A DNA stretch of 46,619 nt from Thermococcus sp. EP1 (GTDB lineage Archaea > Methanobacteriota_B > Thermococci > Thermococcales > Thermococcaceae), in assembly GCF_001317345.1 (NCBI RefSeq), contig NZ_JXCG01000008.1:1-46619 (forward strand), given 5' to 3'. The first letter of the stretch is position 1. Every line of letters begins with the position of its first letter. The notes under the pieces were generated by a model. That model made no database searches. It was not told the DNA's origin and saw nothing but the letters and a program-made list of their open reading frames with translations. Below, in pieces: positions 178 to 34,983 of this stretch. A program made the position numbers and the translations under genes.

Positions 178-936
178 ATGCCAGTTATAATCGTCACTGG
201 GAGAGGAGGAGCCGGTAAAACCACTACTACTGCAAATTTAAGTGTATATTTCGCCCAACAAGAATATAGAACTCTTGCAATAGATGGTGACCTTTTCTTA
301 CCCAATCTTGGATTTCACTTTGCTTTAGAAAATGTCAGTTATACTCTCCACTCTATTCTCAAAAACCCTGATGTAGAACCAGAATGGGCAATATATAAGC
401 ATGGAAAAACTGCGGTGAATGTGATACCGGGAAGTACTAGACTCCAAGATGTCGTAGGAATTTCCCCCAAACGATTAAGGGATGTCGTGGAGCTAATGAA
501 ATATAAGTTCCCTCTAGTGTTTGTTGATTCCCCCACTGGAATACCTTTCGATACATTACCGACTTTTGAAGTTGCAGACTATCAAATAATAGTCGTTGAA
601 ATTGAGAGGTCTCCAATTTATTCTTTTGAAACTATGGTTGAGAACGAGATTAATAAACTCAGAGTAATTGGAGAAGAGTATGGATTAAAGATTGGGGTTA
701 TTCTAAACAAAGTTAGAGAGTCAGAAGATGTGATCGAGCATATAGTAGATGAGATTGACCAAAATGTTGGTTTACCTGTTATAGGTATCATTCCCTTTGA
801 CGAGAGCGTGCCAGAATCTATTAACGTAGGAATTCCAATTCTTGGGTACAAACCCCGTAGTGATGCTGCAATAGCATTTTATGAAGCCGGAGAAATACTT
901 GAGGAATGGATATTTAAAAAGGTTAAAAAGAGTTGA
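178..936 (+). CDS. MinD/ParA-family ATPase
   Basis: This 252-residue P-loop ATPase belongs to the MinD/ParA (SIMIBI) class. Residues 7-15 read GRGGAGKTT, a deviant Walker A motif in which the usual signature lysine (KGGxGKT) is arginine. LVFVDSP near residue 116 is the Walker B-like strand, and IGVILNKV near residue 179 gives the nucleotide-specificity Asn-Lys. The C-terminal GYKPRSDAAIAFYEAGEILEE resembles the tail of archaeal MinD homologues. GGGAGTGTGAG just before the ATG is a ribosome binding site. HMG-CoA reductase follows after 26 bases and is probably co-transcribed. The cargo positioned, if any, is unknown. Confidence 0.85.
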   Translation: MPVIIVTGRGGAGKTTTTANLSVYFAQQEYRTLAIDGDLFLPNLGFHFALENVSYTLHSILKNPDVEPEWAIYKHGKTAVNVIPGSTRLQDVVGISPKRLRDVVELMKYKFPLVFVDSPTGIPFDTLPTFEVADYQIIVVEIERSPIYSFETMVENEINKLRVIGEEYGLKIGVILNKVRESEDVIEHIVDEIDQNVGLPVIGIIPFDESVPESINVGIPILGYKPRSDAAIAFYEAGEILEEWIFKKVKKS

Positions 937-962
937 AAAAATCTCTTTTTGGGGGTTATACT

Positions 963-2186
963 ATGAACATTGAAGAACTCATTGAGAAAGTTGCTAAGGG
1001 AGAAATTAAACTACACCAAGTAGAAAAACATACAAATGATAAGCGTCTTGCCACAGAGATAAGAAGAAAGGCACTTGAAAGAAAGCTTGGAGTAACATTA
1101 GACAACATTGGCCACTACTCTATAGATCCAAACCAAGTCATCGGCAAAAATATTGAAAACATGATTGGAGTCGTTCAAATTCCTATGGGTGTAGCAGGCC
1201 CTCTCAAAATAAATGGAGAGTATGCTAAAGGAGAATTTTACATTCCTCTTGCCACCACTGAGGGCGCATTGGTAGCCTCTGTTAACAGAGGGTGTTCAAC
1301 TCTAACAGCTGCAGGTGGTGTCAAAACCACTATAATTGGTGACAAAATGACACGTGCACCTCTTCTCAAGTGTCCCGATGCTAGAAAAGCAAGGGAAGTT
1401 GCAGAGTGGGTCAAAGGGAACATTGAGTACCTTCAAGAAGAAGCCGTAAGCAAAGTCACTAGACATGGAAAGCTTAGGGATATTAAACCATATATAGTCG
1501 GTAACAATCTCTATCTTCGTTTTGAATTTGAAACTGGCGATGCTATGGGAATGAATATGGTAACAATAGCAAGTGAAGAGATCATGAAAGTAATCGAAAG
1601 CAGATTTCCAGAAGTTAAATATCTGGCCCTTTCAGGTAATGTCTGTGTTGATAAAAAGCCTAATGCGATGAATTTCATTAATGGTAGAGGAAAAAGCGTG
1701 ATTGCTGAGGCCATAATACCTCGTGAAATTGTAGAGAAAAAACTTAAGACAACCCCTGAACTTATAGCAGAGGTAAACTATCGTAAAAACCTTGTGGGAT
1801 CCGCACAAGCAGGAAGCTACGGATTTAACGCTCACTTTGGAAACATTGTGGGAGCAATTTTCCTTGCAACTGGTCAAGATGAAGCACAAATAACTGAAGG
1901 CTCACACGGAATAACTCTAGCCGAAGTTACCCCAGAGGGAGACTTATACATCAGTATAACAATGCCTAGCCTTGAAATCGGAACCGTAGGCGGAGGAACT
2001 CGAGTACCAACACAACGAGAAGCCCTAACTATAATGGGAGTCGCAGGTGGTGGTGAACCACCGGGAACAAATGCCAAAAAATTTGCAGAGATCATAGCCG
2101 GGGCTGTTTTAGCTGGAGAACTCTCACTCCTAGCAGCAATAGCTGCAAAACATTTAGCTAAGGCCCATAAAGAACTTGGACGGTAA
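963..2186 (+). CDS. hmgA: HMG-CoA reductase, class I (NADPH)
   Basis: Reduces (S)-HMG-CoA to mevalonate, the committed step towards archaeal isoprenoid ether lipids. The 407-residue product has the class I hallmarks: ENMIGVVQIPMGVAGPL for CoA binding, TTEGALVASVNRG carrying the catalytic glutamate, GDAMGMNM for NADPH, a DKKP lysine segment (CVDKKPNAMNF), GQDEAQI with the catalytic aspartate, and a C-terminal AAKHLAKAHK histidine. It lacks the membrane anchor of eukaryotic enzymes, so it is cytosolic. The frame is open upstream to a TTG at 933, but GGGGGTT five bases before the ATG at 963 marks that ATG as the start. It follows the MinD-like gene closely. Confidence 0.97.
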   Translation: MNIEELIEKVAKGEIKLHQVEKHTNDKRLATEIRRKALERKLGVTLDNIGHYSIDPNQVIGKNIENMIGVVQIPMGVAGPLKINGEYAKGEFYIPLATTEGALVASVNRGCSTLTAAGGVKTTIIGDKMTRAPLLKCPDARKAREVAEWVKGNIEYLQEEAVSKVTRHGKLRDIKPYIVGNNLYLRFEFETGDAMGMNMVTIASEEIMKVIESRFPEVKYLALSGNVCVDKKPNAMNFINGRGKSVIAEAIIPREIVEKKLKTTPELIAEVNYRKNLVGSAQAGSYGFNAHFGNIVGAIFLATGQDEAQITEGSHGITLAEVTPEGDLYISITMPSLEIGTVGGGTRVPTQREALTIMGVAGGGEPPGTNAKKFAEIIAGAVLAGELSLLAAIAAKHLAKAHKELGR

Positions 2187-11223: not shown

Positions 11224-11304
11224 GTTATTCCCTTTCTTAATATGGGAATTCAAAATTTAAAAATATGGCGCTTAATTTTTAAACCCCCTTCCGAACTTTT
11301 AAAC
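11224..11304. promoter_or_regulatory. Divergent promoter region, ferritin-like and radical SAM genes
   Basis: This 81-base gap holds a TATA-like TTAATTTTTAAACC (about 11272-11285) for the rightward gene. It lies about 25 bases before the ATG at 11305, which implies a nearly leaderless transcript. AT-rich sequence on the other strand (TTTTTAAATTTTG, about 11252-11264) could serve the leftward gene. No strong inverted repeat is seen. Confidence 0.45.
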
Positions 11305-13050
11305 ATGATAATTGCCATAATTGACGGTTATACAGACGAGCCAGCTGGCCTTGGTGTACCTCCTTATCTGGGAATCTACCCCCGATATGCTTATGGGGCT
11401 ATAAAAAAGGCTAATAAAAATGCCCAAGTTTTCTACCTCACTATAGATGATCTCCGTTTTACATATGAAGGAGAGCAAGGGATAAAAACACGGAACAAGA
11501 CCCCTAATGTATTAAAAACTAAGGAGATCCTAGAAAAAGCCGATATTATTATTTACATCGGTGGGCTCCATACTCCAGGCAAGTACTTATCTGCAGTGCC
11601 ATCCCAAGTAGAAGAAGTTGCAAAATTCATAAAGCACCTTAAATGTATTAAAATACTTGGTGGCCCAGCTTTTATGGGTTCTGCTCATGGAGGAGGAACA
11701 AAGATAAGCTCAAAAGAACTCATGCTTGCACAGACGGTTTTTGATCACATCGTCTATGGTGATCTGGAAGCTTTTCTTTACGACTTCTTTAAAAACCCTA
11801 AAGAAGCAGACCCTCTTAGATTCAGAACTTATGAAGAGCTTAAAGATTATGCTCTTCTAGGAGCTGAGGTGGTGAGACAATTTCCGGACTATCCCCATTT
11901 CGTGATAGTCGAAATTGAGACCCAAAGGGGATGTCCAAAAGCTGCAGGTATTGGAGGATGTAGTTTCTGTACTGAGCCTGTGAGGTACAAAACAATTGAA
12001 GACAGACCCATCAAAGACATTATAGAGGAGATTCAAATCCTCTATAATCTGGGAGTGAGACACTTTAGGATTGGGAGACAAAGCTGTATATTTTCCTATA
12101 TGGCAAAACCAAATGACAGAGTGCCCATCCCAAACCCTAAGGCACTTGAAGATTTATTTAGAGGAATTAGAGATGCAGCACCCCTGATAAAGACCCTCCA
12201 TGTCGATAATGCAAATCCTGCTATAATAGCAAACTACCCCAAGGAAAGTATTAAGATAGCAAAGGCCATCATAAAATATGGAACTCCCGGGAATGTTGTT
12301 GCCTTTGGACTTGAAACTGCTGATCCAAAAGTGGCAAAACTCAATAATCTAAATTCCACGCCAGATGAAGCTTATGAAGCTGTTAAAATCCTAAATGATG
12401 TTGGAGCAAAGAGAGGTTATAATGGAATGCCATGGCTTTTACCTGGAATAAACATTCTATTTGGGTTGCCAGGAGAGACTAAAAAAACATATGAGCTTAC
12501 ATATGAATTTTTGAAAAGAATCCTTGATGATGGCCTCTTGGTGAGAAGAATTAATATTAGACAAGTAGTTGTCTTCCCCGGTACTCCTCTCTGGCATATG
12601 CGAGAAAAAGTTAAGATTGAGAAGCACAAAAAGTTAATTCAGCACTATAAATACAAAATAAGACATGAGATAGACTATCCAATGCTCAAACGTTTGGTTC
12701 CTGTGGGTACGATTTTGAGAGAAGTCAGGGCGGAAGTTTTTGATAATGGTCTAACTTATGGCAGGCAGATAGGAAGTTACCCTCTTATAGTAGGAATTCC
12801 AAAGGAGATAGAACTCAATAAGCTCTATAATGTGGTAATAGTTGGTCATGGATTTAGAAGCATAACGGGAATTCCGATTCCAGTGAATATCAATATCGAA
12901 AGCTCCAAAGTGCTCAGTTATCTTCCAGGGCTCGGCAAGAAGAGAATAATTAGGATTCTCGCACAAAGACCCTTTAAGAACAAGGAAGAATTTCTAAAAA
13001 TGTTAGATCCCAGAGAAAGGGAATTCTACGAAAAGATCATAAAAATCTAA
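11305..13050 (+). CDS. Radical SAM protein with C-terminal helix-hairpin-helix (COG1031 type)
   Basis: A 581-residue archaeal Fe-S enzyme of unknown substrate. Residues near 20-150 form an N-terminal domain reminiscent of B12-binding/methylthiotransferase-like folds (IIIYIGGLHTPGKYLS). The radical SAM cluster motif is expanded: CPKAAGIGGCSFC, i.e. Cx8Cx2C rather than Cx3Cx2C. FGLETADP, INILFGLPGET and NIRQVVVFPGTPLW follow in the barrel. A TRAM-like region comes next, and the end has LSYLPGLGKKRIIRIL, a helix-hairpin-helix that suggests RNA or DNA as substrate or partner. The ORF is open upstream to 11242, but the conserved start is MIIAIIDGYTDEP at 11305. RNA modification is plausible but unproven. 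Confidence 0.85.
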   Translation: MIIAIIDGYTDEPAGLGVPPYLGIYPRYAYGAIKKANKNAQVFYLTIDDLRFTYEGEQGIKTRNKTPNVLKTKEILEKADIIIYIGGLHTPGKYLSAVPSQVEEVAKFIKHLKCIKILGGPAFMGSAHGGGTKISSKELMLAQTVFDHIVYGDLEAFLYDFFKNPKEADPLRFRTYEELKDYALLGAEVVRQFPDYPHFVIVEIETQRGCPKAAGIGGCSFCTEPVRYKTIEDRPIKDIIEEIQILYNLGVRHFRIGRQSCIFSYMAKPNDRVPIPNPKALEDLFRGIRDAAPLIKTLHVDNANPAIIANYPKESIKIAKAIIKYGTPGNVVAFGLETADPKVAKLNNLNSTPDEAYEAVKILNDVGAKRGYNGMPWLLPGINILFGLPGETKKTYELTYEFLKRILDDGLLVRRINIRQVVVFPGTPLWHMREKVKIEKHKKLIQHYKYKIRHEIDYPMLKRLVPVGTILREVRAEVFDNGLTYGRQIGSYPLIVGIPKEIELNKLYNVVIVGHGFRSITGIPIPVNINIESSKVLSYLPGLGKKRIIRILAQRPFKNKEEFLKMLDPREREFYEKIIKI

Positions 13051-13084: not shown

Positions 13085-13123
13085 TACAAAGTTAAAAAGA
13101 AGTTAAGAAAAGGCTAAAGCCTT
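13085..13123 (-). terminator. Hairpin plus T-run terminator after the S-layer gene
   Basis: On the minus strand, directly after the S-layer stop, the perfect inverted repeat AAGGCTTTAGCCTT (13110-13123) is followed by TTTTCTTAACTTCTTTTTAAC. This resembles an intrinsic terminator, fitting for a very highly expressed gene. On the opposite strand the T-run near 13069-13076 probably ends the convergent radical SAM transcript. Confidence 0.55.
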
Positions 13124-14589
13124 CAGTTTGATTCTATTAGGTTTATAAGTTCGTCAATTGCCTCTGCGGTCTTGGTGTAGTCTTGTCCTGCAGCGATTAT
13201 GACGTAGTTGTCTGGGTCGTTTGGAAGTGGCTCAACGATTAATGCGTAGCCATCCTCATCCATGACGTCTTCTTTCCACTCTGCAACTTTCTCTTCGCCG
13301 AAGATCTCCTCGAGTTGTGCCCAGACCTTGTTGCTTACCCATCCACCAATGATGTAAACGTCCTTGGTGTTGTCAGCAACGTTGAACTCTGCCAAGTCAA
13401 CTTCATAGTCTGGAACGGCAACTGCATATGGGTCGATTGATGGGATCATGTATTGGGTGTAGGTGTCAACAACTCTCTCTGTGTACCAGACAAGGCGGTA
13501 TTGTGGATCATCTACTACCTTGAGGAATACATCAAGGTCAGCAAGCTCAAATTCGTCTCCAAATGCTAGCTCAACTGTGCCATTGAAGTATACCCAAGTG
13601 CTGGTTTCATTCCAGTTAAGTAGCCATCCATCTACAACTGGAGTGTGCTTTTCAACACTTCCAGTCAGCCAGTAATATGTCCAGTCAACATAGATGTATT
13701 GGCTTCCAAGGACACCAAAGAATGTGTCACCGATCTTCAATTTGAGAATGTGTCCAATTCCAGCTTGTTGAAGTTCTGTCACCTTATCATTTGCCGCTGT
13801 TTCATTTGTACCGAAGAACTCGACCATGTTGTTGCCGTCGTCATCTACCCATATAACAGTCCAGTTGTCTTTTTCTATAATGACGAGATCTGAGCCTGAG
13901 GCTCCTGGGCCCTGAAGTTGGACAAGAGCTCTCTTTTCTGGTGAGATCTCGTAGTCTATGAAGGTTATGTCCCACCCAGTGATGTCTGCAACTGGAACGC
14001 CGACTTCGTAGGTTTGAAGTGGCTCTGAAGAGTCTGAGTCGTAGAAGTACATAGTACTGTCTATAGGTACTGGGTCACCCTCAAACTCTGGCATTGGGCT
14101 CATATCAGGCCCGTAGTATATCACTATTGCTGGGTTTGTCTCGTTGCTCACTATTGTGGTTATGTTTGTGGTAGCATTGAAGCTAAATAAGCTCCAGTTA
14201 AACCAGATTGCTATATCATCCCCAGTGGGAGTGGCGTTCATTGTTAGATCATATTTGAACTCATCAAAGTCTGGGACATATGACTCATTGAACCATTCTC
14301 CCATGGTGCTATCAAATTTCTCTGTCATGTGTGTGTCTGTGGCTTTTACTTCTACCTCTGTTGATGTGATTGAGTCTTGGAAGAGTGCCAAGGCAAGCCT
14401 TGCAGCTGCTAATCCGTCTTCTTTAACGTGGACAACTTGTCCGTCAACCTCTGCGGTTGTTGGGAAGGCAATTACGGCTTTTTCAATATTAAGGCCAGCA
14501 TATACATTCTCGGTTTGAGCTGCTACTGCTCCAAGGCCCCCTGCTACAAGGGCGCCGACACCCAGTGCAATTATTTTTCTTGCTTTCAT
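13123..14589 (-). CDS. S-layer protein
   Basis: Main cell-surface lattice protein. The 488-residue product starts MKARKIIALGVGALVAGGLG followed by AVAAQ, a typical Thermococcales S-layer signal peptide with cleavage near AAQ/T. The mature part is acidic, rich in Asp, Thr, Val, Tyr and Trp, with many Asn-x-Ser/Thr sites (NETNP, NATTNITT, NETSTW), consistent with glycosylation. The C-terminal region (VYIIGGWVSNKVW, then GQDYTKTAEAIDELINLI) matches the archaeal S-layer C-terminal domain. An ideal GGAGGTG sits before the ATG at 14589; the longer frame to 14646 is leader. Codons here are richer in G/C than in the neighbours, as expected for high expression. Confidence 0.93.
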   Translation of the reverse strand: MKARKIIALGVGALVAGGLGAVAAQTENVYAGLNIEKAVIAFPTTAEVDGQVVHVKEDGLAAARLALALFQDSITSTEVEVKATDTHMTEKFDSTMGEWFNESYVPDFDEFKYDLTMNATPTGDDIAIWFNWSLFSFNATTNITTIVSNETNPAIVIYYGPDMSPMPEFEGDPVPIDSTMYFYDSDSSEPLQTYEVGVPVADITGWDITFIDYEISPEKRALVQLQGPGASGSDLVIIEKDNWTVIWVDDDGNNMVEFFGTNETAANDKVTELQQAGIGHILKLKIGDTFFGVLGSQYIYVDWTYYWLTGSVEKHTPVVDGWLLNWNETSTWVYFNGTVELAFGDEFELADLDVFLKVVDDPQYRLVWYTERVVDTYTQYMIPSIDPYAVAVPDYEVDLAEFNVADNTKDVYIIGGWVSNKVWAQLEEIFGEEKVAEWKEDVMDEDGYALIVEPLPNDPDNYVIIAAGQDYTKTAEAIDELINLIESN

Positions 14590-14881
14590 ATCTTCACACC
14601 TCCAATACCTCGTAGGGGCTAAACCCCTAACTATGGTATTCTTCATTACCTATAGGTGCCTTGGGGTTTATATACTTTTCGCTTTCAGACCCTTTCTAAC
14701 GATTAAAAGAGCTCGCTCATTGCCGTAATGACCAAAAATGGCATTTACTTAATGCCTACACTCAATTCGCCTTTTGCCGATAATATCTTAACCAAAAATT
14801 AAATGTTAATGACTCATTAATCCCCCATTATATAAAAGAATTTATAAACATTTCTGCTTTTAAAAATAAAAGATCCAAAAA
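14590..14881 (-). promoter_or_regulatory. S-layer promoter and upstream region with dyads
   Basis: This 292-base gap has no gene. A strong TATA box (AAAAGTATATAAACC on the minus strand, about 14666-14680) should start transcription near 14643, giving a leader of about 54 bases ending in GGAGGTG. Upstream lie three inverted repeats: TCATT-5-AATGA (14717-14731), GGCATT-5-AATGCC (14740-14756) and TTAATGA-1-TCATTAA (14806-14820). They could bind a regulator. The far end near 14829-14850 is very AT-rich and contains TATA-like words on both strands. Confidence 0.6.
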
Positions 14882-15707: not shown

Positions 15708-16754
15708 TTACCACCACATTCCTCTATAATGTCGTTTTTTGTGTCCTCCAATTATTGATATTGGTTCACCACAGTATTCACATTTTCCATCTTTTATGTG
15801 ATACTCTTCTATGGTAAAGCCCCACCGAACTATTAAAGGTTTTCCACATTTTGGACAATATGTATGCTCGCCTTCATGGCCCGGGACGTTGCCTGTGTAT
15901 ACAAATTTTAGTCCCTCCTCTCTTGCTATACGATAAGCCTTCTCAATTGTCCTTACTGGGGTTGGGGGTAAAGATAGAAGCTCATAATGAGGAAAGAAAC
16001 GAGAAAAGTGGACAGGCGTGTCATCACCAAGTTCTTTAATTACCCATCTCGCAAAGCTTCTAATTTCTTCCTCTTTATCGTTAAGCGTTGGAATAATGAG
16101 GTAAGTAAGTTCTACATGAATTCCAAATTCTCTCTTTGCTATAATTGCTGTTCTCTTGCTTGGCTCAATACTTGGAACCTTTGCCACTTTTCTATAAAAT
16201 TCATCACTAAATGCCTTGATATCTATGTTCATTGCATCTATATAGGGAGCTAATTCTCTAAAAGGAGCCTCATTAATGTAGCCATTTGTCACTAGAATAT
16301 TGTTCAATCCTTCGTTTTTAGCCAACTTTGCCGTATCAAGAACAAACTCATACCATATCGTCGGCTCATTATAAGTATAAGCTATGCTTTCACAGTTATA
16401 GTGTTTAGCTAATCGAACTATAGCTTCAGAAGTAGCATTTTCCAAATACGGAAATCTCTCATCAGCTTGACTTATCTCCCAGTTTTGACAATGGATACAA
16501 TGCATGTTGCACCCAACTGTACCTATCGAGAAAGCGCACGAACCGGGATGAAAATGATAAAGAGGTTTTTTCTCTATTGGATCCGCAGCCATGGAAGAAA
16601 CTTTCCCATAATTGAGTGTATAGAGTTTCCCATTAATATTTTTTCTAATCCTACATGAGCCCCTTTGCCCTTCACTAACAATACAATTCAAAGGACACAA
16701 ATGACATCTCACCCTATTTCCCTCAAGGGGTTCCCAATACATCGCTTCTCTCAT
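15708..16754 (-). CDS. amrS: AmmeMemoRadiSam system radical SAM enzyme
   Basis: A 348-residue member of the COG1180 pyruvate-formate-lyase-activating-like group, AmmeMemoRadiSam type. The N-terminus has CHLCPLNC and a further Cys (GSCRIR). The canonical radical SAM motif is CNMHCIHC, preceded by SIGTVGC and followed by QNWEISQ. NEPTIWYEF and HFSRFFPHYEL are typical of this subfamily. The C-terminus is a zinc ribbon (CPKCG ... CEYCG). Homologues are usually linked to Memo and AMMECR1 proteins; neither is nearby. GGTGAG precedes the ATG at 16754. Substrate unknown; the co-transcribed 274-residue protein is the only local partner. Confidence 0.92.
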   Translation of the reverse strand: MREAMYWEPLEGNRVRCHLCPLNCIVSEGQRGSCRIRKNINGKLYTLNYGKVSSMAADPIEKKPLYHFHPGSCAFSIGTVGCNMHCIHCQNWEISQADERFPYLENATSEAIVRLAKHYNCESIAYTYNEPTIWYEFVLDTAKLAKNEGLNNILVTNGYINEAPFRELAPYIDAMNIDIKAFSDEFYRKVAKVPSIEPSKRTAIIAKREFGIHVELTYLIIPTLNDKEEEIRSFARWVIKELGDDTPVHFSRFFPHYELLSLPPTPVRTIEKAYRIAREEGLKFVYTGNVPGHEGEHTYCPKCGKPLIVRWGFTIEEYHIKDGKCEYCGEPISIIGGHKKRHYRGMWW

Positions 16755-16816: not shown

Positions 16817-17521
16817 TCAGAGAACCTTCCTTTTAAACAACAAAACCAACGGAAGGAGCCAAGCTAAGTGAACTGCGAGAGCCATAGGAAAGTCACTGTA
16901 GTCATTGATAGGAATTCCATCAAAGACCTTGTAAAGCCAGTAAGTTGGTAAAAAGGCAGTAAACTTGCTCCAATCTGTCGAGAGGTTTCTCCAGAGAACA
17001 ACAAGCTTAATCACTGGTGGAAGCATAAGAAACCAACCAATTATTTTTGACACCGTTATCGCCTGCATCCTCGATTCTGAGAATATCGTGATGATCAGAC
17101 CATAGATCCATACCTCAAGGAGGAAAAGTGCCATTAAAGTTAGAAGGCCCTTCTGAGGTATCTCTATATCAAGGATGTATGGTGCCACAGCAGCTAGAAC
17201 CACTGTTATCAGTGAGGCCCAGGTAAGTCTGTAGATTAAAAAAGCTTCGCTAGATATTGGGATTACTTGTAAAGCTTGTATTGTTTTGTCTTCCTTTTCA
17301 TCAGCCATCATAAAACCTGGAATCATGCCGAATATCATGGGTATGAATATCAGCCCCAAAAGAGCCAAAAGGGGGTAATAGAGCCCAATGCGATCTTTGA
17401 AGTAGCGGATAATTAGGAGTAAAATTAAAGTCATCGTTACACTATAAAGGAGCATTGGGTCTCTCCTTAACAGCTTGATGTCTGTCTTATAAATAGCTCC
17501 AAACTTTCTAATAAAACTCAT
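16817..17521 (-). CDS. ABC-2 type transporter permease (second permease)
   Basis: A 234-residue membrane protein with about six hydrophobic segments, beginning with the cytoplasmic FGAIYKTDIKLLRRDPMLL seen in ABC-2 permeases. FGMIPGFMMADEKEDKTIQALQVIPIS is the conserved cytosolic loop (EKE...l.a.Pis). It starts inside the previous permease gene (ATGA overlap at 17518-17521). With the other two genes it forms an exporter of unknown substrate; drug, lipid or peptide efflux are all possible. Confidence 0.88.
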   Translation of the reverse strand: MSFIRKFGAIYKTDIKLLRRDPMLLYSVTMTLILLLIIRYFKDRIGLYYPLLALLGLIFIPMIFGMIPGFMMADEKEDKTIQALQVIPISSEAFLIYRLTWASLITVVLAAVAPYILDIEIPQKGLLTLMALFLLEVWIYGLIITIFSESRMQAITVSKIIGWFLMLPPVIKLVVLWRNLSTDWSKFTAFLPTYWLYKVFDGIPINDYSDFPMALAVHLAWLLPLVLLFKRKVL

Positions 17522-18219
17522 CTTACTCCCTCCACAGCATACTTGTAAAACCTTATTCTAGCTATGTAGTACGCTACAACCGCCCAGATTACCAAGCCTG
17601 ATGCTGACCACGTTAATGTATTTCTCGAGATCTCCTCAAAGGGTGCTTTGAAGAAGTGAAGTGCCGGATAGCTTGGTATAACGTAGAGGATTTTCCATAC
17701 TTCATGGGTTAGGTAACCATGATAGTGAACGAATGGGAGAAGTGATACTATCATGACCCCAAGCATTGGCACGAAGTAGTCATCTAAATCTCGATATCTA
17801 GCAGAAATCCCTATGCCGAGGAGTGTATAGACTATGGAGACAAAGAATGTACCAATTACCACATAGGGGATCCCACTGAGGGAGCGCGTACCTATGGCCA
17901 TTATCAGCACTGCTCCAACTATCGAGAGTATACTTAGTAGAAAGGTCTTGGCAAGTATGTAGCTCCTCCATTCTATTGGAGTTACCGCTAAAGCTCCGAT
18001 TGCACCATCCTTCTTTTCAGCAAATATCTCGGTACCAACGAACATAAAACCAACAAGACTCGGCTCAATGATAAGGAATATAGGTACCATCGTCGGGAGA
18101 TATTGCTCTGGAAAAGCCAAGAGCATCAATCCATATGCTAACGCTATCAGTATGTAAATTGGGTATACATAGCTCCTCACACCAATAATTAGGTTTGTCC
18201 TTACCAACCTTCCGATCAT
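17518..18219 (-). CDS. ABC-2 type transporter permease (first permease)
   Basis: A 233-residue, six-segment membrane protein similar in plan to the next gene. The loop GTEIFAEKKDGAIGALAVTPIEWRSYIL is the ABC-2 permease signature (E..dG.l..l.vtP). The two permeases would form a heterodimer with the ATPase encoded upstream. ATGA overlaps at both ends (18216-18219 and 17518-17521) indicate strict translational coupling. Confidence 0.88.
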   Translation of the reverse strand: MIGRLVRTNLIIGVRSYVYPIYILIALAYGLMLLAFPEQYLPTMVPIFLIIEPSLVGFMFVGTEIFAEKKDGAIGALAVTPIEWRSYILAKTFLLSILSIVGAVLIMAIGTRSLSGIPYVVIGTFFVSIVYTLLGIGISARYRDLDDYFVPMLGVMIVSLLPFVHYHGYLTHEVWKILYVIPSYPALHFFKAPFEEISRNTLTWSASGLVIWAVVAYYIARIRFYKYAVEGVR

Positions 18220-19067
18220 ACAAGTCTCCTCCCTGTCACCTTGAGGAATATCTCCTCAAGTGTGGGCTCTTCGGTGTTTATCCTTCTGATCTCGTGGGTT
18301 TTGATGATGTTGAGGAACTCCTCATTCTGGCCAATGTTTTCGAGGGGGAACTCTTTCACACTAATGTCTCCACCAGCAACATATTCTACCTTAACAAGCC
18401 GCTTACCCATCTTTACTTTAAGCTCACTTGGGTTATCTACAAGCCTCACAGCACCATCGACAATGAACGCAACTCTATCACAGAGCTCATCAGCAACATA
18501 CATGTTGTGAGTGGTAAGGAAAATTGTTTTCCCATTCTCTCTCATCTCCAAGAATAAATCTTTGATTTTCCTAGCACTTGCTGGATCAAGACCCTCAAGG
18601 GGTTCATCAAGGAAAAATATTTCTGGATCAGGGAGTAACGCTCTTGCAAGATCAAGCTTCTTCTTCATACCTTTGGAAAACTCCGCAACGAGCTGGTCTG
18701 CTTCCTTATCAAGTCCCACCATTTTGAGGACTTCAATAGGATCAAGATGCTTTTTGTAAAAGCTTGCGAAGAACTGAAGATTTTCAAGAGCAGTAAGACG
18801 GGAGTAAACTGCGGGAAACTCAAAGGAAACACCAATTTTATTATAGTAATCTTTGCCCCATTTTCTCAAGTCTTTGCCAAAGACTTTGATATCCCCTGTA
18901 TGATCTTTAATAATCTTTACTAAAATTTTCACCGTTGTAGTTTTCCCTGCTCCGTTTGGTCCCAAAAAGCCGTAGATTTCTCCTTCTTCAACCTCAAAGC
19001 TAAGATTCTCTACACCTCTAACATCACCGTAATACTTCCTAACATTTTTAACTTCAATCACTGCCAT
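18216..19067 (-). CDS. ABC transporter ATP-binding protein (exporter type)
   Basis: A 283-residue ATPase with Walker A GPNGAGKTT (about residues 36-44), a Q-loop-type region after the beta-strands, signature FSKGMKKKLDLARAL (replacing LSGGQ), Walker B IFFLDEPLEGLD, and switch TTHNM. The C-terminal 70 residues form the regulatory extension typical of DrrA/CcmA-type exporters. GGTGA precedes the ATG. It is the first gene of a three-gene operon; a perfect 16-bp palindrome lies 45 bases upstream. Confidence 0.93.
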   Translation of the reverse strand: MAVIEVKNVRKYYGDVRGVENLSFEVEEGEIYGFLGPNGAGKTTTVKILVKIIKDHTGDIKVFGKDLRKWGKDYYNKIGVSFEFPAVYSRLTALENLQFFASFYKKHLDPIEVLKMVGLDKEADQLVAEFSKGMKKKLDLARALLPDPEIFFLDEPLEGLDPASARKIKDLFLEMRENGKTIFLTTHNMYVADELCDRVAFIVDGAVRLVDNPSELKVKMGKRLVKVEYVAGGDISVKEFPLENIGQNEEFLNIIKTHEIRRINTEEPTLEEIFLKVTGRRLV

Positions 19068-25820: not shown

Positions 25821-26801
25821 ATGAGAGAACTCCGTTATAATCCCTTGCTCGGCCAGTGGATCATGGTATCTGCGGAGAGAGAAAAACGGCCCTGGAGGCC
25901 AAAAGATTTTTGTCCTTTCTGCCCAGGTGGTGAAGAGACAGGTTATGGGTGGGAAGTGCTCTCACTTCCTAATCGTTTCCCAATGCTTTCTTTCAACACC
26001 CCTAAACCCGAAAGTAAAGGGTTTTATAAAAAAGCTCGCGCTCTTGGCCAATGCAGTGTTATAGTGGAGACCCCAGAGCATAAATTGAAAGACTTGGAGG
26101 AACTCTCCATAGAGCAAATGACTAAGGTTGTGCAGCTGTGGAGGCAAATCACAGGAGAATTAAAAAACAACCCTCATATTGCATATCTATCAATTTTTCG
26201 AAATAAGGGTGAAGAAATAGGTGTGAGTTTAACCCACCCCCATGGGCAATTGTATGCTCTGCCTTTCATACCGTTGAAGGTTCGATTAAAGATTGAGAAT
26301 TCCAGAAGGTACTATAATCGATTTAAGAAATGTCTATTCTGCAAGATATTAGATGAGGAGCTAAAAGGAGAACGGCTGATCTACGAAAATAATGACTTTA
26401 TTCTCTTCCTACCTTTCTTTGCAAACTGGCCTTTTGAAGTACACATTTATCCAAAAAGGCACGTCCAATGGCTCACTCAACTAACCCAAGCAGAAATCCT
26501 CAACTTAGCGGATATCCTAAGAGTGACTACAGGCACCCTTAATTCTCTTTTTGAAAGGCAAATGCCATACGTGATGAGCGTGTATCAAGCTCCCTTTAAA
26601 GGAGAGTACTCCTTCTATCATCTGCACATTGAGTTTTATCCACTTCTCAGAGAAAAAGATAAACTAAAATATGCTGCTGGGATAGAAATGGGTACATGGG
26701 AGTTCACCTACGATGGAATCCCAGAAGAAAACGCCCAAAAACTTAAAGAAGTCTGTAAAAAGATCAAAAACAAAATAGGTATGAGAGGAAAATGCACTTA
26801 A
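25821..26801 (+). CDS. galT: Galactose-1-phosphate uridylyltransferase
   Basis: Exchanges UMP between UDP-glucose and galactose 1-phosphate, the second Leloir step. The 326-residue HIT-superfamily protein has RYNPLLGQWIMVSAER, the zinc pair CPFC, a second CLFC pair, HPHGQLYALPFIP with the catalytic histidine (HxHxQ) and a late HLHIEFYPLLR. GGTGATAAG precedes the ATG at 25821. A 56-base gap separates it from the divergent GH1 gene. galE is not in this window. Confidence 0.97.
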   Translation: MRELRYNPLLGQWIMVSAEREKRPWRPKDFCPFCPGGEETGYGWEVLSLPNRFPMLSFNTPKPESKGFYKKARALGQCSVIVETPEHKLKDLEELSIEQMTKVVQLWRQITGELKNNPHIAYLSIFRNKGEEIGVSLTHPHGQLYALPFIPLKVRLKIENSRRYYNRFKKCLFCKILDEELKGERLIYENNDFILFLPFFANWPFEVHIYPKRHVQWLTQLTQAEILNLADILRVTTGTLNSLFERQMPYVMSVYQAPFKGEYSFYHLHIEFYPLLREKDKLKYAAGIEMGTWEFTYDGIPEENAQKLKEVCKKIKNKIGMRGKCT

Positions 26802-26852
26802 TTTCTTTAAAAGGCTTAAAATTTGCTCTACAGTGAAAACCTCATCCTTTAG

Positions 26853-27029: not shown

Positions 27030-27719
27030 ATGGGGAAAACAGTTGGTATTCTCCTCGCGGGTGGCAAAGGAGAAAGAATCGGTAGTCCTATACCAAAACA
27101 GTTCCTATATGTCGGGAACAAGATGCTGATTGAGTATTCAATTGAAAAGCTAGAGAAAACAGAAGAAATTGATGAGATATATGTCGTTAGCGATTCTCAA
27201 TACAGTAAGATAATTGAACATCTTAAGAATAGATATTCCAAACTCACAAAAATTATTAATGGGGGCAGAACAAAAAACGAATCTTTCAAAGACGGTGTCT
27301 TAGCACTAGATGAAGACGTGGAGAGAGTAATAATCCACATTGCAGACCGACCTTTTGTATCTTCGTATGTACTTAGCGAGATGATAAAACTCTTGAACAG
27401 ATATGATGTGATAAGTTTCTGTTCAAAAATTCCGAGTTATGTGGTAAGGGTTAATGGAGGATTTGTATCCAAAGTCCTGAATAGACAGGAATTGAGGCTT
27501 TGTAAATCACCTGTCGCTTACAGAAGTGAAATTCTTAAAACCTTAATAAATATGGTGCCAAACTCAGAATTTTTGAATATTGAGAGTGACATAGAACTTC
27601 TCCGCAAATATCTACCAGAGGTAAAGATTTATGTCTATGAATCAACGAGTTTCAACTTCAAGATAACGTACAAAGATGACCTTCGAGTTACTTCCCTCTT
27701 ACTTCTCAATGGAGCTTAG
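27030..27719 (+). CDS. IspD/TarI-type cytidylyltransferase
   Basis: A 229-residue CTP-dependent nucleotidyltransferase. ILLAGGKGERIGSPIPKQFLYVGNKMLIEYSIEKL is the IspD/TarI nucleotide-binding segment. IIHIADRPFVS replaces the IspD VHDAARP, and CKSPVAYRSEIL replaces TQTPQ. IspD acts in the MEP pathway, which this organism does not need because it carries HMG-CoA reductase. A TarI-like role (CDP-ribitol or another CDP-polyol) is therefore more likely. The convergent neighbour is a CDP-glycerol glycerophosphotransferase-like protein, overlapping by 21 bases. The exact polyol is unknown. Confidence 0.85.
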   Translation: MGKTVGILLAGGKGERIGSPIPKQFLYVGNKMLIEYSIEKLEKTEEIDEIYVVSDSQYSKIIEHLKNRYSKLTKIINGGRTKNESFKDGVLALDEDVERVIIHIADRPFVSSYVLSEMIKLLNRYDVISFCSKIPSYVVRVNGGFVSKVLNRQELRLCKSPVAYRSEILKTLINMVPNSEFLNIESDIELLRKYLPEVKIYVYESTSFNFKITYKDDLRVTSLLLLNGA

Positions 27720-28922
27720 CGGCCAGAAGTACTCTATAACTCTGTCACTGGATCTATCATCTTTGTATTTAAAAAACAAATCTCTAAGCCAAAGCCGTTC
27801 CTTTTCCCATTTTTTAGGATTCTCAAAAGCTTCGTCCAAAGCTTTCAGTAATTCATCCACAGTCTTTACTTTATCTCCTGGAGTCCAAAGTTCAAAGGGC
27901 TCCAAAACAAATCCTCTTGTTTCACAATATTTTTTCTTATCTGGAATATAGAATATTACCGGCCTATTTAAAAGAAGGTAATCTCTAAATACAGAAGAAT
28001 AATCTGTCACCAAAATATCTGCTGCAGGAAGAATATCATAAAGTGTCAACCCTGCTTCCATCAACTCTTGGTTGGTTATTACCCTAATGTACTCATCAGA
28101 ATACTTTTTAACAAACATCTCATCATGTGGATGAGGTTTGAAAATAAAAAGTGCCTCTCTTTGTTTCAAGTATTCTCTAAATTCCTGGTCTTTTACGAGG
28201 TTAGTAAATAGCTCCTGCGTAACTCTCCTATCATAATCCCTGAAAGTCGGCAAGTAAAATACGATCCTTCTGTTTTTAATCTTTGAGCATAAGAGGCTCT
28301 CTAGCCTTTTTAGCGCCTCTCCTTTTCCTTTAAAGAGTGCATCACATCTGGGCATACCCAAAACTAAGATCTTTTCTGGATGTATGTGGAAAATTGCAGA
28401 AAACAACACCTTTGTAAACTCAGAGGTTGCAACAACATAGTCTATTTTTCTTAGAATACTTTTTAAAATAAGTTTCCCAACCCAGTTCTGGTATCGTTTG
28501 TCAAACCAAAAACCTCTTTTTCCTGGAACTGCATGCCAGATCATAACTCCAATTTGATTTTTAGCCTTCCAGTAAGGAATTCTCTGAGAAGAAAATATGT
28601 ATTTTGACCTCAATAACTGCCACAGATATTCAATTGTTCCATACATAACAAACTTTGTATTTTCACGCTTTTCAAACATCCCCTTATTTTCAACAGGCCA
28701 TATAAACTTATAATCCTTAAACTGTCCCAGCTCTTTCATTCGTTCATAAATGTACCTCATATTGCCAGCAAAAGGAGGGTATGAAATAAGCATTATTCTC
28801 TTAGAGTCTTTCGGGATAAGAATACTTATTATGGCTAGGAGATGAGACCCTACAAAAACAACGAAAAATTTAAACCTTTGGGGCAAGAGTTCTATCACTC
28901 TATGAAATACCTTCCATCTCAT
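27699..28922 (-). CDS. CDP-glycerol/CDP-ribitol phosphotransferase-like protein (TagB/TagF/TarL type)
   Basis: A 407-residue member of the glycerophosphotransferase family that builds wall teichoic acids in bacteria. Motifs: IGVMIWHAVPGKRGF, VFYLPTFRDYDRR, FIFKPHPHDEM, ADILVTDYSSVFRDYLLLNR and DRSSDRVIEYFW. An N-terminal hydrophobic segment (about residues 16-36) may place it at the membrane. It should transfer phosphopolyol from a CDP-polyol to a lipid- or protein-linked acceptor. GGGATGA precedes the ATG. It pairs with the cytidylyltransferase read from the other side. Confidence 0.88.
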   Translation of the reverse strand: MRWKVFHRVIELLPQRFKFFVVFVGSHLLAIISILIPKDSKRIMLISYPPFAGNMRYIYERMKELGQFKDYKFIWPVENKGMFEKRENTKFVMYGTIEYLWQLLRSKYIFSSQRIPYWKAKNQIGVMIWHAVPGKRGFWFDKRYQNWVGKLILKSILRKIDYVVATSEFTKVLFSAIFHIHPEKILVLGMPRCDALFKGKGEALKRLESLLCSKIKNRRIVFYLPTFRDYDRRVTQELFTNLVKDQEFREYLKQREALFIFKPHPHDEMFVKKYSDEYIRVITNQELMEAGLTLYDILPAADILVTDYSSVFRDYLLLNRPVIFYIPDKKKYCETRGFVLEPFELWTPGDKVKTVDELLKALDEAFENPKKWEKERLWLRDLFFKYKDDRSSDRVIEYFWPLSSIEK

Positions 28923-29135: not shown

Positions 29136-30401
29136 TCAGTTTTTCTTTAAAAAGCTTAAGATTGAACTTTGTTTGGGCTTATAATACACGTCTTCTCCCC
29201 TAACCTCAATGTTCTCGAGATCTTCAAGTTTTGCTCTTTTAACTTCCTCAGGTAGTTTTATCTCTCCGTATTTTCCTCCTCCACCAGGAACAACAATAAG
29301 TTTCTCATTCCTGAAAGCCCAGATTGCTTTCGCTATGTCATTCCCAATAAGCTCTGCTATAGCCTCTATAGGAGCATCAACAAGAACCCTGATCTCACTT
29401 CCAAATTCTTTCAGAAGACGTTCCCATATACTCTTTACAGACTTAGTTTCAACTCCTTTGTTGAGAACCATTGCGATTATTTCAGCCAGCGGTGCAAGGT
29501 GGAGGTAAGGAGGCCTGTCTTTGGGCTTTTCATCTGTATCTGCAAGCTCAAGAATCCTATCGTGAACGCCCTTCTTTATAATCCCCCCGCAGAGTTCACA
29601 TCTCCATCCCAGTCTCTTTGCATCTTCAAGTCGGTATTTGGTATAACACCTTGAACATGCGGTCAAGTGATATTTTCCGAGTCTTGGATCTAAACCAGCG
29701 TTAAGAATAATCCTTCTTCCACCCTGTTTCAAGATAGCTTTTCTAACTTCCTCAAAAGTTGCTTCCTTGATCTCAAAACGGTTAAATTCTCTTCCAAGGC
29801 GATGCGGTTGTGGAGAATGAGCATCAGAATTTGATAAATACACGAGTTTATGATGGGCTTTAATCTTATCAGCCATGTATGAATCAGCAGAAAGCCCTAA
29901 TTCAAGAAAATGAATTTTTACGTTATTATATGCCTCTTTTAAGCTGTTGTACTCTTTATATAATGCAGTCCATGGGGTAAAGGCATGACTTGGGCCAATT
30001 AGAGCCCCCACCTCGTTTGCCAAGTCCGCTATTTCAGCAGCATTTATTGTTAAATGGGGCCTACCCTCACTATTAATGTCGTTAGAATAGCGCCCAAGTC
30101 TTTCTCGCATTTCTTTTACTGCTTCAATATTAGGAAAGAGAAGAAGATGATGTACCCTTTTATTATCCTCAACCTCTGCTGTAAGAAGAAACTTTATTCC
30201 CTTTATTTCATAAGTACCCTCATCAACTTTTTGAGCATATTTAAGGAGTTCCTCTTCCCATTTTGGGTTTAAAATATCTCCAGTACCAACAATCCCCAAT
30301 CCTTTAAGCTTTGCATTTTCAGCTAAAATTGGAAAAGTCATAAGCTTTGAAACAGCCTTAGAATACCGTGAATGAATGTGAAGATCTGCATCAACAAACA
30401 T
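29136..30401 (-). CDS. endoQ: Endonuclease Q (PHP domain, deaminated-base repair)
   Basis: EndoQ cleaves DNA 5' to hypoxanthine, uracil, xanthine and abasic sites; it was characterised in Pyrococcus furiosus. The 421-residue sequence has the PHP metal site DADLHIHSRYS, IVGTGDI, GPSHAFTPW, LSNSDAHSP, and a zinc-binding region (CSRCYTKYRL ... CELCGGIIKKG). The last residues include QSSILSFL, a canonical PCNA-interacting (PIP) box at the extreme C-terminus. The start has GAGGTGTC upstream. It sits 28 bases after the PAC2 gene in an operon with aIF2-alpha and Nop10. Confidence 0.93.
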   Translation of the reverse strand: MFVDADLHIHSRYSKAVSKLMTFPILAENAKLKGLGIVGTGDILNPKWEEELLKYAQKVDEGTYEIKGIKFLLTAEVEDNKRVHHLLLFPNIEAVKEMRERLGRYSNDINSEGRPHLTINAAEIADLANEVGALIGPSHAFTPWTALYKEYNSLKEAYNNVKIHFLELGLSADSYMADKIKAHHKLVYLSNSDAHSPQPHRLGREFNRFEIKEATFEEVRKAILKQGGRRIILNAGLDPRLGKYHLTACSRCYTKYRLEDAKRLGWRCELCGGIIKKGVHDRILELADTDEKPKDRPPYLHLAPLAEIIAMVLNKGVETKSVKSIWERLLKEFGSEIRVLVDAPIEAIAELIGNDIAKAIWAFRNEKLIVVPGGGGKYGEIKLPEEVKRAKLEDLENIEVRGEDVYYKPKQSSILSFLKKN

Positions 30402-33797: not shown

Positions 33798-34634
33798 TTA
33801 CACACATTTTAGGAGTGCCTCATAATCCTCCCTGCTAAGCCTCCATCCCATTGCACCAAAGTTTTCTTTGATATGAACTTTATTCGTAGCTTTAGGGATG
33901 GCAACTACATTTTCTTTCCATATAAGCCAGTTTAAAGCAACTTGTGCAGCAGTTTTGCCGTATTTAGCCCCCATCTCACTTAGGCATCTATTCCTTGCAA
34001 GACTTCCTTTTTCAAGCGGAGTATATGCCATTAGGGTTATCTTCTCTCTTTTCATATAGTCCAAGAGGCCACTATGTTCAGGCCTACGGTCTCTAAGAGA
34101 GTATTTAACTTGATTTACCACGATTTCATGTTTTTTCATAACCTCTTGACTCTGTTTGAGAAGATCCAAGTCAAAATTACTGACCCCTATATACCTTATT
34201 ATCCCCTCATCTACAAGTTCTTCCAATGCATGAAGTGTCTCTTTTATTCTCTTAAAATCATCTATAGGCCAGTGAAGGAGGTACAAATCTATGTAAGTAC
34301 CAAGTCTCTTCACACTTGCTCTTGCTGCCCTTTTAGCACTTTCATATCCAAAGTGGATGGGCCAGATTTTGCTTACTATGAAAATATCTTCTCGCTCAAA
34401 CTCTTTAATCGCCTCACCAACAAGTTCTTCACTGTGGCCAGAGGCATAAAACTCAGCAGTGTCTATGAGATTCATGCCAAGTTCGAGACCATACCTCAAT
34501 GCCTCAACGTTTTCTTTATCCCTTGAATAATCCGGGCTTTCCCAGCCTCCTACACCCCATGTCCCCATCCCTATGGCAGTGACTTTATCGTCACCTATTT
34601 TCTTTAAATCATTAAAAGGCTGCATTCTTTTCAT
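33798..34634 (-). CDS. Aldo/keto reductase
   Basis: A 278-residue NAD(P)H-dependent oxidoreductase. It has the catalytic tetrad Asp (NLIDTAEFY, with Tyr), Lys (IVSKIWP) and His (YLLHWPI), plus IGVSNFD and VNQVKYSL. The C-terminal AIPKATNKVHIKENFGAM binds NADP. The substrate is unknown. GGAGGGAG precedes the ATG at 34634. Its start overlaps the DUF59 gene by 23 bases, so it belongs to the same operon as the molybdopterin enzyme. Confidence 0.92.
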   Translation of the reverse strand: MKRMQPFNDLKKIGDDKVTAIGMGTWGVGGWESPDYSRDKENVEALRYGLELGMNLIDTAEFYASGHSEELVGEAIKEFEREDIFIVSKIWPIHFGYESAKRAARASVKRLGTYIDLYLLHWPIDDFKRIKETLHALEELVDEGIIRYIGVSNFDLDLLKQSQEVMKKHEIVVNQVKYSLRDRRPEHSGLLDYMKREKITLMAYTPLEKGSLARNRCLSEMGAKYGKTAAQVALNWLIWKENVVAIPKATNKVHIKENFGAMGWRLSREDYEALLKCV

Positions 34635-34983
34635 CTTTCTCCCTCCACTCTTCAAGCAAAAGGCCGATTTCATTATACACCTTCACACTACTAAAGCCCT
34701 TATCTCTCAACACGTTGACAATATCTTTGATAATTCGCTTTTGTACATTCATAGCTATGGCCTGACAAAAGTGACACTCTGGAGTACTCCTCGCTAAGAA
34801 GAGCCACACCATAACGTTCTTACCTTCAACTGTAATACCATATACCAGTCCTTCATCTACTATGTTAAGCTCAGTTTCAGGATCTTTTACTTTTTTAAGT
34901 TCTTCTACTACCTCTCTAACTTCAGGGGGAAGTTCCTTAATTCTTCCTTTAGGTTTCTCTCTAATAAAGTCTAAAAATCCCAT
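34612..34983 (-). CDS. DUF59/MIP18-family protein (with Cys)
   Basis: A 123-residue protein of the DUF59 group that includes SufT/PaaD/CIA-type Fe-S assembly factors. KDPETELNIVDEGLVYGI (about 31-48) is the family core. The usual TLT..GCP segment is replaced by FLARSTPECHFCQAIA, which keeps cysteines. It probably helps Fe-S cluster insertion or metal handling for the nearby molybdopterin enzyme. The frame starts at a GTG (34992) overlapping the previous stop, but I prefer the ATG at 34983. Confidence 0.82.
   Translation of the reverse strand: MGFLDFIREKPKGRIKELPPEVREVVEELKKVKDPETELNIVDEGLVYGITVEGKNVMVWLFLARSTPECHFCQAIAMNVQKRIIKDIVNVLRDKGFSSVKVYNEIGLLLEEWREKDEKNAAF

Follow-up and report, generated by a model that had tools for sequence, protein, structure and literature searches.

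Two facing genes in the genome of Thermococcus sp. EP1 raise the question of what enzymes of teichoic acid type would do in a heat-loving archaeon. Teichoic acid chemistry is treated as belonging to the walls of Gram-positive bacteria and to certain Gram-negative capsules, and the bacterial Tar/Tag wall teichoic acid system comprises a primase, a polymerase, the TagGH/TarGH exporter and attachment to murein, which is not expected in an archaeon. The genes lie in a 46,619-nucleotide stretch of DNA (hereafter the window), which is part of contig C8 (78,620 bp) in a 1.82 Mb assembly of 43 contigs that is 95.9% complete. They encode a cytidylyltransferase of 229 aa (positions 27030–27719, forward strand), predicted to make a CDP-phosphopolyol, and a single-domain, TagF/TarF-like PF04464 phosphotransferase of 407 aa (27699–28922, reverse strand), predicted to act as a CDP-polyol:acceptor polyolphosphotransferase. 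A first-pass annotation had described a cytidylyltransferase facing a TagB/TagF/TarL-type gene; both reading frames are indeed present and convergent, with 3' ends that overlap by 21 bp (27699–27719), as they also do in two relatives (G076 and G090), and they are therefore not an operon in the window lineage. We think it probable that the pair is a horizontally spread module for CDP-polyol activation and transfer, which would place a teichoic-acid-like phosphodiester on a surface molecule.

Families and folds of the two proteins

The 229-aa protein matches the Pfam IspD profile (PF01128, 4.9e-27), and the best PDB matches of its AlphaFold model (pLDDT 86) are IspD, human ISPD and TarI, with a fold match of 1.7e-21 to 1vpa. 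It keeps the CTP-site residues Gly16, Arg20, Lys27, Gly82, Ser88, Arg109, Asn211, Lys213 and Thr215 (E. coli IspD numbering, used for this enzyme throughout), and so has both the fold and the CTP-binding residues of an IspD superfamily CTP:phosphopolyol cytidylyltransferase. It falls below every curated NCBIfam cut-off, including those for ispD (TIGR00453, 125.7 vs 181.3 bits) and D-ribitol-5-phosphate cytidylyltransferase (NF001183, 93.3 against a cut-off of 166), and scores weakly against the inositol-phosphate cytidylyltransferase model. The sole full-length match to the protein in its own genome is the gene itself, others being short N-terminal matches in other nucleotidyltransferases. Its NG86 dN/dS of approximately 0.06–0.08 against G076 and G090 indicates purifying selection.

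Searches of the genome (95.9% complete) gave no match to either DXR or IspF, while MEP-using control genomes were positive for both, and the window encodes the HMG-CoA reductase of the mevalonate pathway (933–2186, forward strand; PF00368, 6.8e-143). The cytidylyltransferase is therefore not needed for an MEP pathway, as the first-pass annotation had argued from the reductase, and its call to look for other MEP genes turned up neither of these two. We rejected assignment as the IspD of that pathway on the lack of DXR and IspF, the sub-threshold ispD score, the changed pocket described below and the presence of HMG-CoA reductase.

For the 407-aa protein, the PF04464 match (8.8e-77) extends over profile positions 5–365 of 367 (361 positions), and the sequence contains all of the WHAVPGKRG, KPHP and TDYSSVFRDY motifs. 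Residues W129, H130, K135, K262-P263-H264 and T306-S310 are invariant in an alignment of nine Thermococcaceae homologues, which bears out the earlier description of a TagB/TagF/TarL-type phosphotransferase with intact motifs. H130, in the WH motif, aligns with the mutated residue of the TarL H300N–CDP-ribitol structure (8va1), and the alignment shows the Asn of that structure. With a pLDDT of 85, the AlphaFold model of the protein matches TagF at 1.6e-21, followed by TarL and TagF-like capsule polymerases and then by generic GT-B proteins at 1e-10. This is the only PF04464 protein of its genome, and it too is under purifying selection (NG86 dN/dS 0.08–0.17 against G076 and G090). On profile, fold and catalytic motifs, then, it is predicted to be a phosphopolyol transferase of the PF04464 family. 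It resembles TagF, TarF and TarL in fold, in both catalytic histidines and in the CDP-binding TDYSS motif, whereas its identity to TagF is only about 20% and to TarL 22%, and its single domain has no extra N-terminal region of the kind found in TarL and TagF. Since at 407 aa it is of TarB/TarF size, adding one unit and building a polymer are equally likely.

Acceptor pocket and source of the polyol

A tree of 37 cytidylyltransferase sequences, in which joins between long branches are uncertain according to a program warning, places the window protein in one clade with those of G076 and G090 (support 100/99), and this clade in turn groups with ten Thermococcaceae proteins that are not fused (100/99). 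The window protein stands outside both the TarI group (100/99) and that of MEP-IspD, so that the comparison with IspD and TarI proposed in the first-pass annotation put it with neither. When the window-type enzyme was sought across the phylum in 115 genomes (E <= 1e-20), matches came only from the same 15 Thermococcaceae genomes that carry the pair (see below), three of them of the window type. As judged from its sequence, the enzyme is neither MEP-IspD nor TarI and belongs to a divergent, Thermococcaceae-only clade.

Four positions (106, 140, 165 and 167), which we take from IspD and TarI structures to be the acceptor pocket, are conserved as Asp, Thr, Thr and Gln in TarI and most MEP-IspD proteins. 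The window protein has Asp106Ile (Leu in G090), Thr140Tyr, Thr165Ser and Gln167Val; the ten sister Thermococcaceae proteins have Asp, Asn, Ala or Ser, and Thr, and alignment of the cytidylyltransferases is uncertain around Thr189/Asp190. Loss of Asp106 is worthy of note, as its equivalent in B. subtilis IspD is described as a strictly conserved residue with a part at the CTP site (PMC5099578). The label 'IspD/TarI-type' thus stands as regards the superfamily, to which PF01128 and the fold assign the protein, and falls as regards TarI, whose group excludes it and whose pocket has been remodelled here. TarI membership was rejected on the tree (100/99), the NF001183 score and the pocket of Ile, Tyr, Ser and Val. 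The changed pocket suggests that another acceptor is used, which is probably again a phosphopolyol, and the product is probably a CDP-polyol and probably not CDP-ribitol.

Two relatives differ in this respect. In G079 (L053:8292–9710) and G030 (L065:8603–10027) the cytidylyltransferase carries an SDR domain fused at its C-terminus (472 and 474 aa) and lies beside a PF04464 gene. Fusion of IspD and SDR domains is the layout of Bcs1, a bacterial CDP-ribitol synthase. Both archaeal fusions keep Asp106, Thr140, Thr165 and Gln167 and group with a Bcs1-like fusion from Weeksellaceae (98/94), which is itself encoded beside two PF04464 genes. Bcs1 of Hib reduces ribulose-5-phosphate with NADPH before activating the product with CTP (PMC10299916), and other bacterial ISPD homologues are fused to such reductases (PMC4873967). 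By domain layout and pocket, the G079 and G030 fusions are good candidates, and our best, for archaeal CDP-ribitol synthases.

These fusions, together with the fact that the window 407-aa protein has its best NCBIfam score against the TarL model, could be taken to mean that the window pair is a true TarI/TarL-like pathway leading through CDP-ribitol to poly- or mono-ribitol phosphate. A single aldo-keto reductase without specific assignment is also encoded in the window (33798–34673), and in mammalian cells the formation of CDP-ribitol involves an aldose reductase (PMC4873967). However, the window enzyme stands in a separate clade and has lost the pocket residues common to IspD and TarI, and the expected dehydrogenases were not found in the genome: no other Thermococcaceae genome, this one included, has a homologue of the fusions' SDR domain at E <= 1e-12, PF00106 matches in the window genome span just ~70 of 195 positions, at the N-terminal end, and the single PF00107 protein is unassigned. 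Nor is a ribulose-5-phosphate reductase (TarJ or SDR) linked to the pair at the window locus. The polyol phosphate synthase that the first-pass annotation had hoped to find thus did not emerge, in that no ribitol-phosphate-type dehydrogenase was detected in the genome (95.9% complete), which argues against ribitol, and we regard a ribitol pathway at this locus as decidedly unlikely. A search for LicD in the same genome was likewise negative.

No dedicated reductase would be required if the enzyme activated a ready archaeal polyol phosphate, glycerol-1-phosphate or inositol-1-phosphate, with CDP-glycerol or CDP-inositol then serving a teichoic-like polymer or modification peculiar to archaea. 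The explanation that we prefer includes this as a special case; it fits the outcome of the reductase searches and a pocket unlike those of the pentitol and tetritol enzymes, and in other archaea and bacteria PF04464 genes do lie beside TagD-like (glycerol-type) genes. Against it, the known route to CDP-glycerol uses TagD, an enzyme of unrelated fold, and a short match in the same genome (C17, 441-aa frame) may already be the usual inositol-phosphate cytidylyltransferase of Thermococcales. In so specific a form we consider it unlikely.

Linkage of the two genes and insertion of the islet

The cytidylyltransferase is present at full length (E <= 1.7e-32) in 15 of 94 Thermococcaceae genomes, and every one of these 15 has a PF04464 protein, which is found in just three of the remaining 79 (in two the gene is cut off by the end of a contig, and in one the match is weak, E 7.8e-5). 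The linkage is therefore not due to chance (Fisher exact p=9e-15, counted over genomes some of which are closely related, making the effective n smaller). The genes are adjacent in 13 of the 15 genomes; a methyltransferase gene lies between them in G006, and in G067 each is at a contig end. Most pairs are encoded on one strand with overlapping or near-abutting ends, in the order PF04464, cytidylyltransferase, GT2 glycosyltransferase, and several clusters have Wzx-type flippase genes and other glycosyltransferases nearby. The same neighbours recur at non-archaeal loci in Bacillota (L079, L085, L092, L094, L098) and Bacteroidota (L090). These patterns of gene content support a functional pair. 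The earlier proposal that the two proteins activate and polymerise a phosphopolyol therefore survives in its first half, where co-occurrence, adjacency and fusions favour a CDP-polyol route; polymerisation is no more than an even possibility, as the TarB/TarF-sized protein may transfer a single unit.

The window pair makes up the whole of a 2.3-kb islet between galT (25821–26801, forward strand) and a PHP-type TIGR00375 gene (29136–30401, reverse strand), the latter being conserved context outside the module. In seven genomes of the same genus (G074, G075, G078, G079, G080, G083, G084), galT and the PHP-domain gene converge, their stops no more than a few bases apart, and no insert is present. 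An imperfect direct repeat of 22 bp (20/22 identical) flanks the islet, with its left copy at 26802–26823 and its right copy at 29142–29163, inside the 3' end of the PHP-domain gene; no further copy occurs in the window at up to two mismatches, and the arrangement fits insertion with target duplication. G+C content is 0.36 in the islet compared to 0.40–0.41 in its neighbours. The pair occupies the same galT/PHP junction in G076, and in G090, which belongs to another genus, it lies elsewhere, in a galactose cluster (L052:7035–11117) where PIG-L deacetylase and GH4 genes are directly upstream of the cytidylyltransferase. Synonymous divergence of the pair genes between the window genome (G000) and G076 is that of galT, which together with the low dN/dS indicates that the islet did not enter this lineage recently and that its genes have been maintained.

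An IspD family match in an islet-like insertion with a flanking repeat might suggest an MEP-pathway remnant or an unrelated passenger without function, a reading to which we give next to no weight in view of the absence of DXR and IspF, the purifying selection and the co-occurrence with PF04464. It is harder to set aside a link with galactose metabolism, in which the pair would make a soluble galactose-related phosphodiester (e.g. a compatible solute) or use galactitol phosphate rather than modify the surface. The pair lies beside galK, GH57, MFS, GH1 and galT genes in G000, G076 and G090, and in G090 the PF04464 gene overlaps the GH1 gene by 4 bp while the cytidylyltransferase follows the PIG-L and GH4 genes. 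However, galT abuts the PHP-domain gene with no insert in the seven genus relatives, which shows that the gal genes can do without the pair; in the remaining 12 genomes with the pair it lies outside that cluster, for the most part among glycosyltransferases; and the PF04464 enzymes with solved structures work on teichoic or capsule polymers. We therefore find this link improbable. As the window-lineage pair is convergent and set in galactose-utilisation surroundings that lack glycosyltransferases, the acceptor pathway is not visible locally.

Proposed chemistry and relation to known systems

According to the preferred explanation, the cytidylyltransferase would combine CTP with a phosphopolyol, other than methylerythritol phosphate and probably other than D-ribitol-5-phosphate, to give a CDP-polyol and pyrophosphate. 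The PF04464 enzyme, presumably associated with the membrane, would then pass the phosphopolyol on to a hydroxyl group on a glycan that is lipid-linked or at the surface, with release of CMP, and the product would be a teichoic-acid-like phosphodiester of one unit or a short chain. We infer this chemistry, along with the membrane association and the surface location, from computed results, namely both families and folds, the conserved catalytic residues, the gene linkage and the absence of MEP genes. The CDP-polyol route is the best reading of these, and the Bcs1-like fusions of two relatives speak for it; against it stand the convergent setting away from glycosyltransferases in the window lineage, the Ile or Leu at the Asp106 equivalent, the changed pocket and the failure to find a polyol-phosphate dehydrogenase in a genome that is 95.9% complete. 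A bolder form, put forward only tentatively, is that the divergent IspD clade, with its remodelled pocket, makes a new CDP-polyol specific to Thermococcaceae which is polymerised on a surface glycan or lipid of an S-layer archaeon; the polymer would then be a teichoic acid of archaea built from a unit of its own. Phosphorus makes up 1.5–4.5% of the exopolysaccharide of Thermococcus litoralis (PMC2901825), which we do not count as support for the module.

The window enzyme resembles the CDP-ribitol synthases TarI, Bcs1 and mammalian ISPD in fold, in CTP-binding residues, in pairing with a CDP-polyol phosphotransferase and, in two relatives, in its fusion form, but differs in its separate clade, its replaced acceptor-pocket residues and the lack of a linked or identifiable reductase in the genome. 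Unlike the hosts of bacterial wall teichoic acid systems, this one is an archaeon without murein. The bare idea of a teichoic-like PF04464 protein in archaea is not new, since a PF04464 gene of the pseudomurein methanogen Methanobrevibacter ruminantium has been annotated as teichoic acid biosynthesis (PMC5816558) and our contig search found the family in Methanosalsum, Methanobrevibacter, Halocatena, Lokiarchaeota and marine euryarchaea. Compared to M. ruminantium, the window locus adds a linked cytidylyltransferase and a different archaeal order. In the open-access literature (subscription journals lying mostly outside its scope) we found no report from Thermococcales of such a module, an activation-transfer pair that is linked and co-occurs and that comprises a separate cytidylyltransferase clade and two Bcs1-like fusions.

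If the preferred explanation is correct, a teichoic-type activation-transfer pair in murein-free archaea widens the range of teichoic acid chemistry and points to an undescribed component of the Thermococcales envelope, and the cytidylyltransferase would be a heat-stable CDP-polyol enzyme with a possibly new substrate. Close relatives that have the pair and others that do not make the module open to direct test. G078, a genome of the same genus, lacks it.

Two of the non-archaeal loci, from gut Bacilli (L079 and L085), encode a PF04464-adjacent IspD-like protein with a hydrophobic residue at the Asp106 position and Asn at 108, where the window lineage has Ile or Leu and Asp or Asn, although long branches separate them in the tree and the pocket otherwise differs. 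The IspD-like proteins of these loci (L079:1557–6996 and L085:1558–8119 being the spans of the loci) have HVGNRP in place of HDAxRP and are accompanied by apparent ABC-2-type exporter genes (judged from sequence starts only), and may use another CDP-linked substrate. Elsewhere in the window, a 602-aa B12-binding/radical SAM-like protein (11242–13050, forward strand) lies under all curated NCBIfam cut-offs. Another gene (13123–14646, reverse strand) encodes an apparently secreted protein of 507 aa that has no Pfam or NCBIfam match and whose N-terminus resembles those of archaeal S-layer proteins; beside it are an AmmeMemoRadiSam-type radical SAM gene (15708–16754) and a DrrA-like ABC exporter (16817–19067).
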